A stretch of DNA of 64,000 bases from the NCBI RefSeq assembly GCF_008807075.1, contig NZ_CP035632.1, positions 1,984,001 through 2,048,000 of the forward strand, written 5' to 3'. Source of the stretch: Synechococcus sp. RSCCF101. Its GTDB lineage: Bacteria; Cyanobacteriota; Cyanobacteriia; PCC-6307; Cyanobiaceae. The notes under the pieces were generated by a model. It saw only the letters and a program-made list of their open reading frames with translations, did no database searches and was not told the DNA's origin. Below, piece by piece: positions 3,490 to 19,444 of this stretch; position 1 is the first letter of the stretch, and each line of letters starts with the position of its first letter. The position numbers and the translations under genes are program-made.

Positions 3490-5928
3490 ATGACCCTCAC
3501 CCCGATCCCCGCCGCTGCCGCTTCGATCCAGGCGCCCCCCGACGACGAGCTGCAGGGGCTCGATGCCTACTGGCGCACCGCCAACTACCTGGCGGTGGGC
3601 ATGATCTACCTCCAGGACAATCCCCTGCTCAAGGAACCGCTCAGGCCGGAGCACATCAAGAACCGGCTGCTGGGCCACTGGGGGTCCAGCCCGGGCCAGG
3701 CCTTCATCTGGACCCACGCCAACCGGCTGATCCGGAAATACGACCTGGACATGATCTACATGTCCGGCCCCGGCCATGGCGCCCCGGGCATGCTCGGCCC
3801 CGTCTACATCGACGGCAGCTACAGCGAGCTTTATCCGGACAAGTCCATGGACGGTGACGGCCTGCGCAAGTTCTTCAAGCAGTTCTCCTTCCCCGGCCAC
3901 ATCGGCAGCCACTGCACCGCCGAGACCCCCGGCTCGATCCACGAGGGCGGCGAGCTGGGCTACGTGCTCTCCCACGCCGGCGGTTCGGTGTTCGACAACC
4001 CCGAGCTGATCACCATCGCCTGCGTCGGCGACGGCGAGGCGGAAACCGGCCCGCTGGCCACCAGCTGGCACATCAACAAGTTCCTCAACCCCGTGCGCGA
4101 CGGTGCCGTGCTGCCGGTGCTGCACCTCAACGGCTACAAGATCGCCAACCCCTCGCTGCTGAGCCGCATCAGCCACGGCGAACTGGAGAAGCTGATGCAG
4201 GGCTACGGCTGGCAGCCGATCTTCGTCGAGGGCTCCGATCCGATGACCATGCACCGCGCCATGGCGGTGGCGATGGAGCAGGCGGTGACCACGATCCGCA
4301 GCATCCAGTCGCAGGCCCGCAGCAGCGGCGAGGCGGTCCGCCCCGCCTGGCCGATGATCGTGCTGCGCTCACCCAAGGGCTGGACCGGCCCGGCCGAGGT
4401 GGACGGCAACAAGGTGGAGGGCTTCTGGCGGGCCCACCAGGTGCCGATCGCCGGGGTGAAGAGCAACCCCGCCCACCTGCAGCAGCTGGAGGACTGGATG
4501 AAGAGCTACCGCCCCTGGGAGCTCTTCGATGAGAACGGCACGGTGCGTGCGGAGATCCGGGCCCTGTCCCCGCAGGGCGGCCGCCGCATGGGATCCAGCC
4601 CTCACGCCAACGGCGGCGTGCTGCGCAAGGACCTGCTCTTCCCCGACATGGCGCCCTACGCCGTGCCGGTGGAGATCCCCGGCACCACCGAGAAGGAGAA
4701 CACCTACCCGCTCGGTGAGCTGATCCGCGACCTGATCCGCCGCAACCCCGGCCGCTACCGCCTGTTCGGGCCCGACGAGACAGCCTCCAACCGGCTGCAG
4801 GCGGTGTATCAGGCCACCAAGAAGGCCTGGATGGCCGATTTCCTGCCGGAGGACCTCAACGGCAGCGAACTCTCCCGCGATGGCTACGTGGTGGAGATGC
4901 TCTCCGAGCACACGCTGGTGGGAATGATGGAGGGCTACCTGCTCACCGGCCGCTACGGCTTCTTCCACACCTACGAAGCCTTCGCCCATGTGATCTCCTC
5001 GATGTACAACCAGCACTGCAAGTGGCTGGACACCTGCGAGGAGATTCCCTGGCGCGCACCGATCGGCAGCTGGAACTGCCTGATCTCCTCCACGGTGTGG
5101 CGGCAGGACCACAACGGCTTCACCCACCAGGATCCCGGCTTCATGGACCTGGCCGGCAACAAGAAGGGCTCGATCACCCGCGTCTACCTGCCCGCCGATG
5201 CCAACTGCCTGCTGGCGGTGGCCGAACAGGCCCTGACCGAAACGAATGTGGCCAACATCATCGTGTCGGACAAGCAGAAGCATCTGCAGTACCTGGATCT
5301 GGAGGCGGCCCGGCGGCACGTGGCCAAGGGGGCCGGCATCTGGGAGTGGGCCTGCAACGACGATTGCGGCACCGACTTCGATGAGCCCGATGTGGTGCTC
5401 GCCTCGGCCGGTGACATCCCCACCAAGGAGGTGCTGGCGGCGATCGAGATCCTGCGCCATGAGATCCCCTCACTGAAGATGCGCTACGTGAACGTGGTCA
5501 AGCTCTTCGCTCTCACCCCCGAGAGCGAACATCCCCACGGCCTGTCGGATCGCGATTTCCGCAGCCTGTTCACCGAGGACAAGCCGGTGATCTTCAACTT
5601 CCACGGCTATCCCTGGCTGATTCACCGCCTCGCCTATCGCCGCCCCAACCACCACAACTTCCATGTGCGCGGTTACAAGGAGCAGGGCAACATCAACACG
5701 CCGCTGGAGCTGGCGATGAACAACCAGATCGATCGCTTCAACCTGGTCATCGATGTGATCGACCGGGTGCCGAGCCTCGGCTCGCGCGCCTCGCACGTGA
5801 AGGAGCGGATGAAGGATGAGATCTTCAAGAACCGCGCCTATGCCTACGAGCACGGCATGGATGCTCCCGAGGTGAGCGACTGGCGCTGGCGGCTCGGCCT
5901 CAGCGCCTGCACCTTGCCCGAGGCCTGA
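3490..5928 (+). CDS. xfp: phosphoketolase (xylulose-5-P / fructose-6-P)
   Basis: An 812-residue thiamine-diphosphate enzyme that splits xylulose 5-phosphate or fructose 6-phosphate with phosphate, giving acetyl-phosphate plus glyceraldehyde 3-phosphate or erythrose 4-phosphate. Length and order match XFP. Near the N-terminus is GPGHGAPG (residues about 93-100) with the family His residues around GHIGSHC. The ThDP/Mg site GDGEAETG lies at about 180-187, and a transketolase-like pyrimidine domain and C-terminal domain follow. It opens a run of four same-strand genes, with 17 bases to ldh. The acetyl-phosphate product is the direct substrate of ackA at the end of the run, which supports a fermentative or overflow role. 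Identification is strong. Confidence 0.97.
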   Translation: MTLTPIPAAAASIQAPPDDELQGLDAYWRTANYLAVGMIYLQDNPLLKEPLRPEHIKNRLLGHWGSSPGQAFIWTHANRLIRKYDLDMIYMSGPGHGAPGMLGPVYIDGSYSELYPDKSMDGDGLRKFFKQFSFPGHIGSHCTAETPGSIHEGGELGYVLSHAGGSVFDNPELITIACVGDGEAETGPLATSWHINKFLNPVRDGAVLPVLHLNGYKIANPSLLSRISHGELEKLMQGYGWQPIFVEGSDPMTMHRAMAVAMEQAVTTIRSIQSQARSSGEAVRPAWPMIVLRSPKGWTGPAEVDGNKVEGFWRAHQVPIAGVKSNPAHLQQLEDWMKSYRPWELFDENGTVRAEIRALSPQGGRRMGSSPHANGGVLRKDLLFPDMAPYAVPVEIPGTTEKENTYPLGELIRDLIRRNPGRYRLFGPDETASNRLQAVYQATKKAWMADFLPEDLNGSELSRDGYVVEMLSEHTLVGMMEGYLLTGRYGFFHTYEAFAHVISSMYNQHCKWLDTCEEIPWRAPIGSWNCLISSTVWRQDHNGFTHQDPGFMDLAGNKKGSITRVYLPADANCLLAVAEQALTETNVANIIVSDKQKHLQYLDLEAARRHVAKGAGIWEWACNDDCGTDFDEPDVVLASAGDIPTKEVLAAIEILRHEIPSLKMRYVNVVKLFALTPESEHPHGLSDRDFRSLFTEDKPVIFNFHGYPWLIHRLAYRRPNHHNFHVRGYKEQGNINTPLELAMNNQIDRFNLVIDVIDRVPSLGSRASHVKERMKDEIFKNRAYAYEHGMDAPEVSDWRWRLGLSACTLPEA

Positions 5929-5945
5929 CGGGCGGCCGCGGATCC

Positions 5946-6986
5946 ATGACCGTCTCCACCATTCCCGGGCAGCGGCCGGAGCAGGCTCCGGGCCAGAGTC
6001 TTTTTCTGGCCACCGGTGCCGATCGCAGTCCCGTCACCCTGCCGGTGCGCAAGGTGTCGATCGTCGGCTGCGGCGCCGTCGGGATGGCCTGCGCCCTCTC
6101 GATCCTGCACCGCGGCTGCATGGAGGAGCTGGTGCTGGTGGACATCGCCGCCGAGCGGCTTGAGGGGGAGGCGATGGACCTCTGCCACGGCCTGCCGTTC
6201 CTGCCCCGCACCGACCTGCGGGCCGGAACGATCGAGGAGGCCGGGCGCGGATCGGATGTGGTGGTGATCAGCGCCGGCATCCCCCAGAAGCCCGGCGAAT
6301 CCCGCCTCGATCTGATCGGCAAGAACGCCGATCTCTTCCGCCGGCTCATCCCCCCCATCGCCGAGCACTGCCCCGATGCGGTGCTGCTGGTGGTGAGCAA
6401 TCCCGTGGACGTGCTCACCCACATCGCCGGTGCCCTGAGCGGCTTCCCGCCCCACCGGGTGATCGGGTCCGGCACGGTGCTCGATTCCGCCCGCTTCCGC
6501 ATGGCCATCAGCCGCCGGCTGGGCCTGGATCCCCACAACGTGCAGGCCCTGGTGCTCGGTGAACACGGCGACAGCGAGGTGCCGATCTGGAGCCAGCTCA
6601 CCGTGGCCGGACTACCGCTGCACGACGCCGCCTGGGGCGACCTGGCCGGCCCGGGCGGCCTCACCCTCGAGGCGGTCTTCGATCAGGAGGTGCGTCAGGC
6701 GGCCCAGGAGATCATCCGCCGCAAGGGCAGCACCTCCTGGGCGATCGGCCTGGCCACCGCGGAGATCGTGGAGGCGGTGCTGCGCAGCAAGGAACGGCTG
6801 CTCTCGGTGAGCACCCGCAGCCTCGGCCTCTACGGCCTGGCGGATGTGTGCCTGAGCCTGCCCACCCTGGTGAATGACCGCGGCGCCACCAGCCTGGTGC
6901 GGCTTCCCCTCTCGGAGCTGGAGCTCGAGCGCCTGCACGGCAGCGCCCGGCTGCTGGAGGAGTCGCTGCGGGCGGTGGGCTTCTGA
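5946..6986 (+). CDS. ldh: L-lactate dehydrogenase
   Basis: A 346-residue NAD-dependent 2-hydroxyacid dehydrogenase of the LDH/MDH superfamily, reducing pyruvate to lactate. A Rossmann GCGAVG motif (residues 41-46) follows an extra N-terminal stretch of about 35 residues. The specificity loop reads QKPGESRLD. The Gln at about 114 is the residue found in lactate dehydrogenases where malate dehydrogenases have Arg, so LDH is preferred over MDH. The catalytic His lies in GEHGDS (205-210). It lies 17 bases after xfp and before glgP, consistent with reoxidising NADH during dark glycogen breakdown. I infer L-specificity from the family; allosteric control is not visible. Confidence 0.93.
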   Translation: MTVSTIPGQRPEQAPGQSLFLATGADRSPVTLPVRKVSIVGCGAVGMACALSILHRGCMEELVLVDIAAERLEGEAMDLCHGLPFLPRTDLRAGTIEEAGRGSDVVVISAGIPQKPGESRLDLIGKNADLFRRLIPPIAEHCPDAVLLVVSNPVDVLTHIAGALSGFPPHRVIGSGTVLDSARFRMAISRRLGLDPHNVQALVLGEHGDSEVPIWSQLTVAGLPLHDAAWGDLAGPGGLTLEAVFDQEVRQAAQEIIRRKGSTSWAIGLATAEIVEAVLRSKERLLSVSTRSLGLYGLADVCLSLPTLVNDRGATSLVRLPLSELELERLHGSARLLEESLRAVGF

Positions 6987-7083
6987 GCGATGGCCATCTC
7001 CCCCTCGCTGCCGCCCCTGCCGCCCCGTCCCGGCTGAACGCTCCGCCACCTCTCTTCTCCTGCCCCACTCCACCGACGCCGTC

Positions 7084-9606
<2,523 letters not shown>

Positions 9607-12562: not shown

Positions 12563-12563
<1 letters not shown>
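11838..12563 (+). CDS. DUF47 family phosphate-transport regulator
   Basis: A 241-residue all-helical protein of the DUF47/PhoU-like family that accompanies PiT transporters. It is built of long amphipathic helices with paired acidic motifs such as ENEADG in the C-terminal half, where PhoU-type proteins bind metal clusters. Its TGA overlaps the ATG of the PiT gene (TGATG), so the two are translationally coupled. This is the standard bacterial pairing in which the DUF47 protein controls phosphate flux through PiT. The mechanism in cyanobacteria is not established. Confidence 0.88.
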
Positions 12564-14154
<1,591 letters not shown>

Positions 14155-14161
14155 ATGGCTG

Positions 14162-14208: not shown

Positions 14209-14606
14209 GAAAGCAGGCGAGGTGATCGCGGCCGGCCTCCGCTCAGGGGTGCCGGCTGAGGAAAGTCCGGGCTCCCCGATGGCCAGGCCTGCTGGGTAAC
14301 GCCCAGTGCGGGTGACCGTGAGGAGAGTGCCACAGAAACACACCGCCGATGGCCCCGGAGCCCGCCTCCGGCGGCACAGGCAAGGGTGCAAAGGTGCGGT
14401 AAGAGCGCACCAGCAGCATCGAGAGGTGCTGGCTCGGTAAACCCCGGCCGGGAGCAAGGCCAAGGGGCAATGGCTGGCCATCGACCCAGCCCCGCCGCAA
14501 CGCGCCGCTCGAGGCCGCCGGTAACGGCGGTCCCAGATAGATGATCACCCCCGCGTCCGGCCGGTCCGGAGGCGGTGAACAGAACCCGGCTTACGTCCTG
14601 CTTTCC
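14209..14606 (+). ncRNA. rnpB: RNase P RNA
   Basis: The catalytic RNA of RNase P, which matures tRNA 5' ends. Conserved blocks are present in order: GAGGAAAGTCCGGGCTCC near the 5' end (CR-I), ACAGAAACA, the AGATAGATGATCACC block, and ACAGAACCCGGCTTA near the 3' end. The ends are set by helix P1, where GAAAGCAGG (14209-14217) pairs with CCTGCTTTC (14597-14605). At about 398 nucleotides it is a normal type A RNA. Open frames across it on either strand are ignored. Confidence 0.97.
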
Positions 14607-14665
14607 TCCATTCGATCGAGCGGCGGGCAATCCCCCCAGAATGCGGTGGGTCCTGAGACTGGAGC

Positions 14666-15748
14666 ATGCGCCGCCGTCAGCTGCTCATGGCGCTGGCTCT
14701 TGGGGCGCTCAGCGCGCCGGTGCTCATGGGGCAAGCCGGGAGCGGTGCTCCAGCGCTGAACGACCTGGCCCGCGGAGCGGGGAGGCTCTGGGGCGCGGCT
14801 GTGAGCAGCGCCCAGCTCGATGATCCGAACCTCCGGCGCCTGCTGCTCGCTCAGGTCGGCCTGATCGTGGCCGAGAACGAGATGAAGTGGGAGACGCTGC
14901 AACCGCAGCCCGGGGTCTTCCGCTTCACGGCCGCGGATCGCCTGCTGGACTTCGCCGAGCGGCACGGGCTGGCGATGCGGGGCCACACCCTCGTGTGGCA
15001 CCGGCAGGTGCCGGCCTGGCTGCGGCAGCTGGAGGGCCGGGCCCTGGAGCGTGCCATGGCCACGCACATCCAGACGGTGATGGGTCGCTACCGCGGCCGG
15101 CTCGACTCCTGGGATGTGGTCAACGAGCCGATCGCCGATGACGGCACCGGTCTGCGCTCCAGCTTCTGGCTCGACCAGCTGGGAGAGACCTACATCGCGC
15201 GGGCGCTGGAGCTGGCCCACGCCGCCGACCCGTCGGCCCGGCTGGTGATCAACGAGTACGGGCTGGAAGGCGATGCCCCGAAAAGCGCCCGCAAACGCCA
15301 ACGCTTCCTCGCCCTGCTGCGGGACCTGCGCCGGCGCGGCGTGCCCCTGCACGCGGTCGGCCTTCAGGCGCACCTGCACGCCCATGGGGGCGGGCCCACC
15401 ACCTTCGACCAGTTGCCGGCATTCCTTCAGGCGATCGCCGACCTGGACCTGGACATCCTGATCACCGAGCTCGATGTGAACGACCGCGACCTGGCCGCAC
15501 CGGTGGAGACCCGTGATCAGAAGGTGGCGGCGGTCTACGGCGCCTTTCTGGAGGCTGTGCTGCCCCAGCCCCGCCTGAAGCAACTGGTGAGCTGGGGCCT
15601 GAGCGACCGCGACACCTGGCTGAACTCCGCCTTCCCGCGCGCCGACGGCCAACCGCAGAGGCCCCTGCCGTTCGATGCGGACCTGCGGCGGAAAGCGGCC
15701 ACCGGGGTCATCGAGCAGTCGCTGCGGCGATCGTCCGGGACACCCTGA
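14666..15748 (+). CDS. glycoside hydrolase family 10 (endo-beta-1,4-xylanase-like), exported
   Basis: A 360-residue protein with an N-terminal signal sequence (MRRRQ then a hydrophobic run, probable cleavage near residues 22-25), so it acts outside the cytoplasm. The rest is a GH10 (beta/alpha)8 barrel. It has the substrate-site stretches ENEMKWE and GHTLVWH, the acid/base Glu in VVNEP (about residue 154) and the nucleophile Glu in ITELDVND (about 267). Known GH10 enzymes cleave beta-1,4-xylan and some beta-glucans. It lies about 100 bases before a HlyD-type adaptor and a BcsA-like glycosyltransferase, so trimming of the exported polymer is a more likely job than plant xylan degradation. The polymer is unknown. 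Confidence 0.9.
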   Translation: MRRRQLLMALALGALSAPVLMGQAGSGAPALNDLARGAGRLWGAAVSSAQLDDPNLRRLLLAQVGLIVAENEMKWETLQPQPGVFRFTAADRLLDFAERHGLAMRGHTLVWHRQVPAWLRQLEGRALERAMATHIQTVMGRYRGRLDSWDVVNEPIADDGTGLRSSFWLDQLGETYIARALELAHAADPSARLVINEYGLEGDAPKSARKRQRFLALLRDLRRRGVPLHAVGLQAHLHAHGGGPTTFDQLPAFLQAIADLDLDILITELDVNDRDLAAPVETRDQKVAAVYGAFLEAVLPQPRLKQLVSWGLSDRDTWLNSAFPRADGQPQRPLPFDADLRRKAATGVIEQSLRRSSGTP

Positions 15749-15854
15749 CCACCACTCGGCGCCGTGGGTTGTGCGGTGAAGGCCTGTTCCGCACCATACG
15801 GTCGCCCATCTCGCCGGCATCCCAGACGCGCCGGGCAGGCCTCCTCGCGTGCAC

Positions 15855-17261
15855 ATGGCTCACCGATCCCCATCGCTGACGGCCGCCGAGCCCCTGCAGC
15901 CTGCAGACCACGCACCACCGGAGCGTCTCACGATCTGGGTGTCGCGCATCGGGCGCAGCTGCCTCGTCTGCGCCGTGGCCGGTGCCTCCGATCCGCCGGC
16001 GTCGGAGGAGGGAACCGGTGCAGGCGGCAGCGGTGCGCCCCCCCCGCCGGGACCGCCCAGCATCAGCGCTCCATCGAGCCGCATCCCACGCTCCGGCAAC
16101 GCCAATCTGGCGATTGTGCTGATCGCACTCGGACTGCTGGCCACCGCGGCGGGCATCGCGGTCAACTTCCTCTCGGCCCGCTCCAGGGATGCCGTGATCA
16201 ATGCCGTGCCGATTCATGTGTCGGCACCGATCGAGGGGGTGGTGGAACGCATCGACGTGCAGCCTGGCAGCCTCGTGCAGGCGGGCGCGGTGATCGCACG
16301 GGTTCGCAACCCGGTGGCTCCCCGCGATGCGATCAAGACCCTCCAGACCGCCCTCCAGACCGCGACCTCCCGGGTGACGGATCTGGAGGAGCAGGAAGGG
16401 CTTCAGCAGCAGCGGCTCACCAGGCTGCGCAGCGACCGGGAGCAACAGCTGGCGCTGGAGAGCGAGCGGGACCGGCAGGAGATCCGGGAGACGGAGGCGG
16501 CGCTACAGCGCACCGGCCAGGCGCTCGCCTTCGCCCGCCGGGATGCGGAGCGGCAGCGCTTTCTCTTCGAGCAGGGCGCCGTGGCCGGCAACGTCGTTGA
16601 TCGCGCCTACACCGAGGTCGAGCAACGGCAGCACGAGCTGGATGGCCTCCGGTCCCGCCGCGCGGCCCAGAATGCGGTGCTGCGGGCATCGGAAGGCAAC
16701 CTCTCCCTGCGGCACAACCGCAGCGGGTTCGATCCATCCGTGCGGCTTCAGGAGGAGGAGCTCGCCCTGAACCGTTTGCAGGGCGACCTGCGCACCGAGC
16801 GGCGACGGGTGAGCGGCCTGCGCGAGCAACTGGCCGTGGCGGAACAGGAATGGAGCGAACGCCACGAATGGACGGTGCGCAGCCCCAGAACGGCCGTGGT
16901 GTGGGACGTGCTCGCCCAGGAGGGCGACCGGGTCAACGGTCTCGAACCGCTCTTGACCCTGATCGACTGTGAGCGGCGCTGGCTCACCACCACCATGACG
17001 GAGCACGATCTCAACGAGATCGGGGTGGGCTCCAAGGCACGGGTCCAACTGGTGGGAAACCGGCGGCGACTGCGGGGTGAAGTGGTCTCGATTCGCTCGG
17101 GGATCGGGCGCCTGCAGCTGGGGGAGGAGGCGATCCGTCCTGTGCCGATCAACCTGGCCCGGGAGAGCGAGGTGAGGGTCCGCCTGCTGAACGACTGGCC
17201 CGCCCCGCCCGAGGAATTCTGTTATGTGGGCTCCTCGGCCCGTGTGGTGTTCGGGTCATGA
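15855..17261 (+). CDS. HlyD-family membrane fusion protein linked to polysaccharide synthase
   Basis: A 468-residue inner-membrane anchored adaptor. A Pro/Gly/Ser-rich cytoplasmic leader of about 75 residues precedes one membrane span (LAIVLIALGLLATAAGIAV). A biotinyl-lipoyl half motif (VSAPIEGVVERIDVQPGS), two long coiled-coil helices rich in Gln, Arg and Glu, and a C-terminal beta-barrel with WTVRSPRTAVVWDV follow, which is the normal HlyD order. ATG 15855 is preferred over a GTG two codons earlier. Its stop overlaps the start of the glycosyltransferase (ATGA), so the pair is coupled. It probably bridges the synthase to an outer-membrane TolC-like exit; no such protein is encoded nearby. 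Confidence 0.87.
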   Translation: MAHRSPSLTAAEPLQPADHAPPERLTIWVSRIGRSCLVCAVAGASDPPASEEGTGAGGSGAPPPPGPPSISAPSSRIPRSGNANLAIVLIALGLLATAAGIAVNFLSARSRDAVINAVPIHVSAPIEGVVERIDVQPGSLVQAGAVIARVRNPVAPRDAIKTLQTALQTATSRVTDLEEQEGLQQQRLTRLRSDREQQLALESERDRQEIRETEAALQRTGQALAFARRDAERQRFLFEQGAVAGNVVDRAYTEVEQRQHELDGLRSRRAAQNAVLRASEGNLSLRHNRSGFDPSVRLQEEELALNRLQGDLRTERRRVSGLREQLAVAEQEWSERHEWTVRSPRTAVVWDVLAQEGDRVNGLEPLLTLIDCERRWLTTTMTEHDLNEIGVGSKARVQLVGNRRRLRGEVVSIRSGIGRLQLGEEAIRPVPINLARESEVRVRLLNDWPAPPEEFCYVGSSARVVFGS

Positions 17262-19444
17262 AGATCCTGCGTCCCGAACGCGCGGGGGGCGGCCCAAAAC
17301 GCCTGGCCCCCTGGGCCTGGAATCTGCTGATGATCTCGATCATCGCCCTGGCCGGTGCCCTGCTCTTCGCCAACCTGCGCGTCTCCCTGGTGGCCCCGGG
17401 GCTCCTGAATCCCCTGCAGATGCGCCAGTTGCCGGAGGCGATGCAGGTGCAGGAGCCCTGGCGCGATGTGCTGCTGCCGCTGACCGCCAGTGCGGCGGCC
17501 TGCCTGGCCGCCTCGTTCCTGCCCCACAGAACCTGGGCCCATCTGCTGGTGTCCTCCCTGCTGGCGCTGGTGTCGACGCGCTACTTCATCTGGCGTGCCA
17601 CCACGATCAACACCGCGCATCCTGTCAGCTTCGCCTTCAGCCTGGTGTTCTTTCTCTGTGAAGCCACCTACCTGATTTCACTCCTGCTTCAGTTCTATCC
17701 CTCCCTGTTCTTCCGGCCGGGCCAAAGACGCCGCGAGGCCGACACCCTTCGACCCTGGCTGGACGCGCATGCCCCCAGCGTGGACATCTTCATCCCCACG
17801 TACAACGAAGCCGAGCGACTCATTCGCCGCTGTGTGCTCGCCTGCAGGAACATCGAGTATGCGAACAAGACCATCCACATTCTCGACGACGGCCATCGCA
17901 GCAGCATCGCGCGCCTGGCCGAGGAGCTTGGCGTGCACTATCTCAGCCGGCCGGACAACCGGGATCGCAAGGCCGGCAACCTGAATCACGCCCTGGCCCA
18001 CACCAGCGGTGAATTGATCGCCGTGTTTGATTGCGACTTCATCCCCTTCGCCCGCTTCCTGGAGCGAACAGCGGGATTCTTCTCCGACGCCAGCGTCGCC
18101 CTGGTTCAGACCCCACAGCACTATTTCAACGCCGACTTTCACAACCGCAACCTCGGTGTCGACGTGGTGCTGCCGGGCGACATGGATTACTTCTTTCACT
18201 ATGTGCAAGTCCTGCGCGACCGCTTCAACTGCGTCATCTGCTGCGGCACATCCTGCGTGGTGCGCCGAGCCGCCCTGGAGCAGATCGGCGGCTACGTGAC
18301 CCATTGCATCGTGGAGGACAGCCAGACCGGAACGCGGCTGCTCACACGCGGTTGGCGCATCGTCTACATCGATGAGATTCTCAGCCTCGGGGAGGTGCCC
18401 CGCACCTTTCGCGATTACCTCGAGCAGCGCCTGAGGTGGCTGCAGGGAAACGTGCAGATCTTCTGCTCTCCCAGAGAGATGCCCATCTGGAACAGCCTCG
18501 ACCGCTGGCAGACAGCGAGCTACGTCACCCTCCTGATCAGCCTGTTCACGCCCTTGTTCAGAGCCGTGTACATCGTCTTTCCCCTGCTCTCGCTCCTGGC
18601 CGGTTTCACCCTGATCGCTGCGCCACCGATTGAATACATCTCCTACGGCCTCCCGTTCATTCTGATGCATTACGTGCTGGGGTACTGGCAGACGGATGGC
18701 CACTATTTCCAGTACTGGACCGAAGTCTATGAAGCGCTGTTCTGCTTTCCGGCTCTGATGCGACTGGTGCGCCTGATTCGCGATCCCTTTCGCAGGCTCG
18801 GCAGTCTGGTGACGAACAAGAGCGTCAATCACAGCGAACAGACGGTGGACCTGCCTCTGGCTCTTCCGTTCCTGGTTTACCTGGCGCTCTTCGCGCTCGC
18901 CCTGCTCAGCCGCTACGGCGTGCCCCTGCTGGACGTGCGTTGGTACCGCTCGCCGTTCGAGGGGGAAGCACTGATGCTGGCGTGGAACTTTTACAACGCT
19001 CTGCTGATGGGGGTGTGCCTGCTCGCCTGCGTGGACAAACCCGTGCGTCGGCGCACGGATCGGTTCCCGCTTGAGCTGATCTCCTGCCTCGAGCTCGACG
19101 GCCGCGAGTTCTGGGGGGTCACCGGCGATGTCTCCGAGGAGGGGGCCGGTCTGCTGCTCACCACCTCGGGGCCCTCCAGCCAGGGCGGCAAAGGCATCCT
19201 GCGGGTGCCGCAGTACGACCTGCGCCTGCCAGTGCAGTTGATGCGCATCACCCTTCAGGACGGCTACCCCCTGCTGGGACTGCGCTTCCTGCTGGCTGAG
19301 CAGCAGGCGGAGGCCGCCATGATCCGCCTGATCTACGGCGAGAGCTCCTGGTTCCAGAAACTGCCCCGGATCAGTTTTCTCGATTCCCTGTTCGTGCTCC
19401 TGGGCAGCGTGTTTCGAGCCGAGCCGATCGTGCAGCGCTATTAA
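17258..19444 (+). CDS. BcsA-like processive glycosyltransferase (GT2) with PilZ domain
   Basis: A 728-residue inner-membrane polysaccharide synthase of the cellulose synthase type. Four membrane helices precede the GT2 domain and about four follow it. Catalytic motifs are present: DDGHRS (about 208), DCD in FDCDF (about 257), CCGT (about 327), VED (about 352, where classical BcsA has TED) and QRLRW (about 389). A C-terminal PilZ domain keeps RxxxR (RRTDR, about 597) and DxSxxG (DVSEEG, about 624), so c-di-GMP control is expected. The upstream HlyD gene overlaps it. Product is probably a beta-1,4-glucan; another beta-glycan is possible. Confidence 0.9.
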   Translation: MKILRPERAGGGPKRLAPWAWNLLMISIIALAGALLFANLRVSLVAPGLLNPLQMRQLPEAMQVQEPWRDVLLPLTASAAACLAASFLPHRTWAHLLVSSLLALVSTRYFIWRATTINTAHPVSFAFSLVFFLCEATYLISLLLQFYPSLFFRPGQRRREADTLRPWLDAHAPSVDIFIPTYNEAERLIRRCVLACRNIEYANKTIHILDDGHRSSIARLAEELGVHYLSRPDNRDRKAGNLNHALAHTSGELIAVFDCDFIPFARFLERTAGFFSDASVALVQTPQHYFNADFHNRNLGVDVVLPGDMDYFFHYVQVLRDRFNCVICCGTSCVVRRAALEQIGGYVTHCIVEDSQTGTRLLTRGWRIVYIDEILSLGEVPRTFRDYLEQRLRWLQGNVQIFCSPREMPIWNSLDRWQTASYVTLLISLFTPLFRAVYIVFPLLSLLAGFTLIAAPPIEYISYGLPFILMHYVLGYWQTDGHYFQYWTEVYEALFCFPALMRLVRLIRDPFRRLGSLVTNKSVNHSEQTVDLPLALPFLVYLALFALALLSRYGVPLLDVRWYRSPFEGEALMLAWNFYNALLMGVCLLACVDKPVRRRTDRFPLELISCLELDGREFWGVTGDVSEEGAGLLLTTSGPSSQGGKGILRVPQYDLRLPVQLMRITLQDGYPLLGLRFLLAEQQAEAAMIRLIYGESSWFQKLPRISFLDSLFVLLGSVFRAEPIVQRY

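Follow-up and report, generated by a model that had tools for sequence, protein, structure and literature searches.

A GH10-HlyD-GT2 gene trio of Synechococcus sp. RSCCF101 is a member of the Xcs system and likely serves cellulose synthesis and export

Three co-directional genes of the freshwater cyanobacterium Synechococcus sp. RSCCF101, at positions 14666-19444 (+) of the window, encode in this order a GH10 glycoside hydrolase, a HlyD-type adaptor and a GT2 synthase carrying a PilZ domain. The window is the whole stretch of DNA analysed, 64,000 nucleotides long, and corresponds to positions 1,984,001-2,048,000 of the 2.98 Mb single-contig genome. The trio is real and conserved, and it is a member of the already described Xcs system; most likely, it is functional. 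We consider it likely that the locus is an Xcs-type operon for a c-di-GMP-regulated β-1,4-glucan (cellulose), combining synthesis, HlyD-TolC export and trimming by the GH10 enzyme. Freshwater picocyanobacteria would then have the Xcs cellulose route, encoded compactly in a single operon, and XcsC appears to be a member of GH10, a family known for xylanases.

Organization and conservation of the locus

The trio is preceded by rnpB (RNase P RNA, class A; 14210-14608 (+); Rfam RF00010, 215 bits), whose 3′ end lies 57 bases upstream of the GH10 start codon. This gene is a neighbour and stands outside the trio system. Downstream of the synthase, a PAP2 phosphatase gene is found on the opposite strand. 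On the upstream side, a PHO4 phosphate transporter frame (window 12563-14119) terminates (RRDSNPRPTV) antisense within a tRNA-Arg gene (14080-14155), the final residues of the frame being a translated tRNA stretch.

The HlyD open frame extends back to a GTG codon at 15849. Because relatives have nothing that corresponds to the first 42 residues of this longer frame, we place the start near 15975, where another candidate GTG is present. Depending on the start chosen, the gap between the GH10 and HlyD genes is 100-226 bp. No terminator-like site was found within this gap, and a promoter scan gave no signal above chance. The first-pass annotation, made from the sequence alone, had the GH10 gene preceding an adaptor-synthase pair that is translationally coupled. 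The order and the common direction were recovered, and coupling is limited to the HlyD-synthase pair, where the HlyD stop and the synthase start form a four-base ATGA overlap (17258-17261 (+)) that recurs in most relatives.

A GH10 match was detected in 14 of the 251 Cyanobiaceae genomes sampled, and 12 of these 14 contain a close orthologue of the window enzyme. In all 12, the orthologue adjoins the synthase and the GH10-HlyD-synthase order is kept. That all close relatives share this gene order is far more than chance would give. The full trio was found at ten named freshwater loci (Cyanobium, Synechococcus, Aphanothece and two uncultured), with GH10 enzymes 56-64% and synthases 56-67% identical to those of the window; the search of other picocyanobacteria that the first-pass annotation had proposed was positive. 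An S. elongatus-like genome (L055) also carries the trio, its GH10 being 50% and its synthase 51% identical to the window proteins. Across the phylum, GH10 occurs in 22 of 244 genomes and, outside the trio lineages, is encoded at a distance from such a synthase.

The adaptor-synthase pair also occurs without GH10, at seven loci, and the hydrolase is therefore not obligatory. From the synthase tree, several losses of GH10 would be the simplest reading of these loci. Such pairs, together with the 100-226 bp spacing, are what would be expected if the GH10 were an independent enzyme for external xylan, merely lying beside the adaptor and the synthase. We regard this as exceedingly unlikely, given the close orthologues beside XcsA in 12 of 12 genomes and the overlap of the GH10 and HlyD reading frames in two relatives (L055 and L203). 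Phylogeny argues against it as well. In a maximum-likelihood tree, the trio GH10s and one from a contig fragment form a single clade (100/98) apart from the other cyanobacterial GH10s, and the window takes the same place in the GH10 tree as in the synthase tree.

Features of the three proteins

The xcsC-like GH10 enzyme (14666-15748 (+), 360 aa) matches Pfam PF00331 with 301 bits (E=1.2e-89). The acid/base E154, the nucleophile E268 and all other catalytic and -1 subsite residues are in place. Its N-terminus, MRRRQLLMALALG, contains a Tat-like RRxLL export signal (MRRRQLL, 14666-14743 (+)), read from the sequence and from the N-termini of relatives; the latter show RRQLIL or, in the S. elongatus-like protein, KRRQFLLG. 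The N-termini of the window enzyme and its relatives are probably Tat signals. The AlphaFold model (pLDDT 93) gave the Cellulomonas fimi xylanase/cellulase Cex (Xyn10A) as its top PDB match, followed by many xylanases. Cex shares the GH10 fold and the catalytic residues with the window enzyme, but it is a secreted degradative enzyme outside any synthase operon, and it cuts both xylan and cellulose substrates. GH10 enzymes are for the most part xylanases. At the -2 subsite position N44 (Cex numbering; window 14874-14885, GH10 residues 70-74), which was also compared in L047 and L055, the window has N, most trio GH10s have S and the S. elongatus-like one has W. With this N/S/W variation, the comparison of subsite residues does not settle the substrate.

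We considered whether the polymer might contain xylose or be a xylan-like β-1,4 chain, with the GH10 acting as a true xylanase. The complete xylanase subsites of the window enzyme are consistent with this, and so is the layout of one relative, in which genes for UDP-glucose dehydrogenase and UDP-glucuronate decarboxylase lie directly upstream of the trio on the same strand (L073:2037-4464; also L202:4817-7241). These two enzymes make UDP-xylose. The decarboxylase of L073/L202 is a second copy and scores 430 bits to human UXS1. However, the linkage was seen in one genome only, the window-genome decarboxylase lies 41 kb away, and the other trio loci inspected mostly have ligA upstream. Moreover, Cex-like GH10 enzymes cut cellulose derivatives too, and the Xcs system of T. 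vulcanus supports cellulose. A xylose-containing product is accordingly very unlikely in our estimation. Decidedly improbable, too, is the fuller version of this reading, in which c-di-GMP would control the synthesis of a xylan-like or xylose-containing polymer in freshwater cyanobacteria, the GH10 would be the editing enzyme matched to it, and the operon of one relative would include its own genes for UDP-xylose supply.

The adaptor (xcsB-like, 15975-17261 (+)) is a HlyD/EmrA-type membrane fusion protein (PF13437, E=2.5e-18), an assignment that also draws on EmrA/MacA structures and on alignments. It is closest to EmrA and MacA in both sequence and fold, the pTM of its model being low (0.53). 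In this model, a single N-terminal membrane helix (residues 41-65, 16095-16169 (+)) is followed by a long hairpin. The hairpin tip carries the motif R193-x3-L197-x6-A204 (16551-16586 (+)), in which R and L are invariant in a 23-row alignment. The R-x3-L-x6-A/S form is kept in nearly all relatives. Adaptors of the AcrA/MacA type dock on TolC by an RLS motif, which the tip motif of the window adaptor appears to resemble. XcsB has its fold and hairpin-tip motif in common with the adaptors of the EmrAB-TolC and MacAB-TolC pumps; there, however, the inner-membrane partner is a drug transporter, whereas in the window it is a glycan synthase.

The xcsA-like synthase (17258-19444 (+), 728 aa) was identified by GT2 and PilZ profiles and by its motifs as a GT2 processive β-glucan synthase. 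It contains DDG, DCD, ED and QRLRW motifs and a VTxK gating loop. The PilZ domain (residues 597-693, 19046-19336 (+); PF07238, E=7.7e-9) has both c-di-GMP motifs, RxxxR and DxSxxG. We observed 28 GGDEF matches in the window genome, a 3 Mb picocyanobacterial genome. Against the CelA profile TIGR03030 the synthase scores 376 bits, under the equivalog cutoff of 699. At the site aligned with E299 of R. sphaeroides BcsA, cellulose synthases have E or D, and the enzymes that make curdlan or mixed-linkage glucan have R (PMC6821405). The window synthase has D at this site. Together with the PilZ domain, this residue favours a cellulose-type product, as judged from sequence features, and makes the unusual polymer that the first-pass annotation had entertained the less probable reading. 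Because a purely cyanobacterial GT2 clade with unknown product has been reported (PMC6821405), we infer a cellulose product rather than assign it.

Relationship to the Xcs and Bcs systems and proposed pathway

The XcsA-XcsB-XcsC (+TolC) cellulose system of cyanobacteria was reportedly described by Maeda et al. in 2018. In S. elongatus PCC 7942, the genes for XcsA, XcsB (HlyD) and XcsC (endoglucanase), 1398-1399-1400, form an operon, and N. punctiforme has a similar Xcs operon (PMC12430437; PMC7582838). The T. vulcanus genes lie apart from one another (tll0007, tlr0903 and tlr1902), and each of them, as well as the TolC-like tlr1605, is needed for cellulose-mediated aggregation (PMC12430437; PMC7582838). 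The window trio shares the PilZ synthase, the HlyD adaptor and the endoglucanase with this system, and its gene order matches the published description of the PCC 7942 operon; its three genes are together, whereas those of Thermosynechococcus are scattered. As in the Xcs system, a HlyD-like adaptor is present in place of BcsB.

The hydrolase was compared using G089, a 2,593,857 bp genome that we take to be of the T. elongatus BP-1 type. Its synthase orthologue lies at 5475-7616 (-), its best HlyD at 919215 (+) and its only GH10 at 1988755 (+). These are, we presume, the positions and strands of tll0007, tlr0903 and tlr1902. The gene at the last of these positions, although divergent, is clearly a GH10 (E=4.9e-59); its identity as tlr1902 rests on genome size, place and strand. 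On this identification, the window hydrolase falls in the tlr1902 family. The named S. elongatus genome used as a control likewise gave a PF00331 match. Given these two matches, GH10 is most likely the XcsC family generally. The Thermosynechococcus-type GH10 is about 29% identical to the window enzyme and sits on a very long branch, so that the tree does not establish orthology between the two. Among the synthases, window XcsA groups with those of G089 and Thermosynechococcus in one clade (100/100).

The kinship that the first-pass annotation had raised, with the HlyD-dependent route for cellulose export in Thermosynechococcus, was thus upheld, the trio matching XcsC-XcsB-XcsA. Its proposal of an undescribed system was not, since XcsA-XcsB-XcsC is already on record in S. 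elongatus PCC 7942 and T. vulcanus. Nor did convergent replacement of a GH8 hydrolase find support: with the gene at the XcsC (tlr1902) position of G089 itself a GH10, the Xcs system appears normally to employ a hydrolase of this family, which would then be no replacement here. Because GH10 is most likely the XcsC family, the contrast between GH8 BcsZ and GH10 is a difference between Xcs and Bcs and not a novelty of the locus. A literature search for cellulose in Cyanobium, or for GH10 at the cellulose loci of cyanobacteria, returned nothing specific. The interest of the locus now lies in the assignment of XcsC to GH10 and in the nature of the polymer, plain cellulose or not.

In common with the BcsA-BcsB-BcsZ-BcsC system, the locus has a homologous catalytic subunit, a PilZ domain and a hydrolase in the operon. 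It differs in having HlyD and GH10 instead of BcsB, GH8 and a linked BcsC. Neither BcsB (PF03170) nor GH8 BcsZ (PF01270) gave a match in the window genome, while the E. coli control was positive for both. The TolC-like partner that the first-pass annotation had suggested seeking elsewhere in the genome has three candidates in the contig (332561-333913, 471945-473216 and 2608516-2609790), none of them linked to the trio.

We infer the product, the direction of export, the TolC partner and the role and substrate of the GH10 as follows. XcsA (17258-19444) would polymerise UDP-glucose and, upon binding of c-di-GMP to PilZ, drive the chain through its own membrane channel. XcsB (about 15975-17261) would take up the chain in the periplasm, standing in for BcsB, and dock on a TolC-like protein of the outer membrane whose gene lies elsewhere. 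XcsC (14666-15748), probably a Tat substrate, would cut misplaced or tangled chains like BcsZ. Weighing against this reading are the TIGR03030 score under the cutoff, the canonical xylanase subsites of the GH10 in a family made up mostly of xylanases, the relatives that have XcsB-XcsA but no GH10, the very long branch of the Thermosynechococcus GH10 and the unlinked TolC partner. Through loci of this kind, the replacement of BcsB and BcsC by HlyD adaptors and TolC could be tested directly.

The rhizobial BgsB-BgsA module and additional HlyD-GT2 pairs

Overlapping HlyD and GT2 genes in the same order are also present in S. meliloti and other rhizobia, where bgsBA makes mixed-linkage glucan (PMC9495663; PMC7902896). 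BgsB is homologous to XcsB along its full length (hhalign 99.8%), and a CCG[ST] motif is common to BgsA and the window synthase. The cyanobacterial XcsB-XcsA and rhizobial BgsB-BgsA pairs appear to represent an ancient adaptor-synthase module, which would link them as a single HlyD-GT2 export module.

If the homology extended to the product, the window locus would make a (1,3;1,4)-β-glucan, with the GH10 trimming that polymer. We find this improbable. BgsA lacks PilZ, and the Rhizobium/Sinorhizobium BgsA-type proteins have R, not D or E, at the E299 site, whereas the window synthase has the PilZ motifs and D, and in the G089 synthase at the tll0007 position the residue is E. BgsA and XcsA also fall in separate supported clades; the Bgs pair, moreover, has no adjacent hydrolase and a different product. 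A cellulose-type product of XcsA remains the reading that we favour.

Additional pairs of this kind were seen in two genomes. G089 has a second adjacent HlyD-GT2 pair (L208/L213, C1:1875893-1879288), as well as another synthase whose coding sequence is divided between two frames (L216/L217, 2021459-2024174). Genome G355 carries a GH10-HlyD-GT2 trio (L198, C21) plus a separate HlyD-GT2 pair (C35), and the synthase of this C35 pair groups with that of L073.
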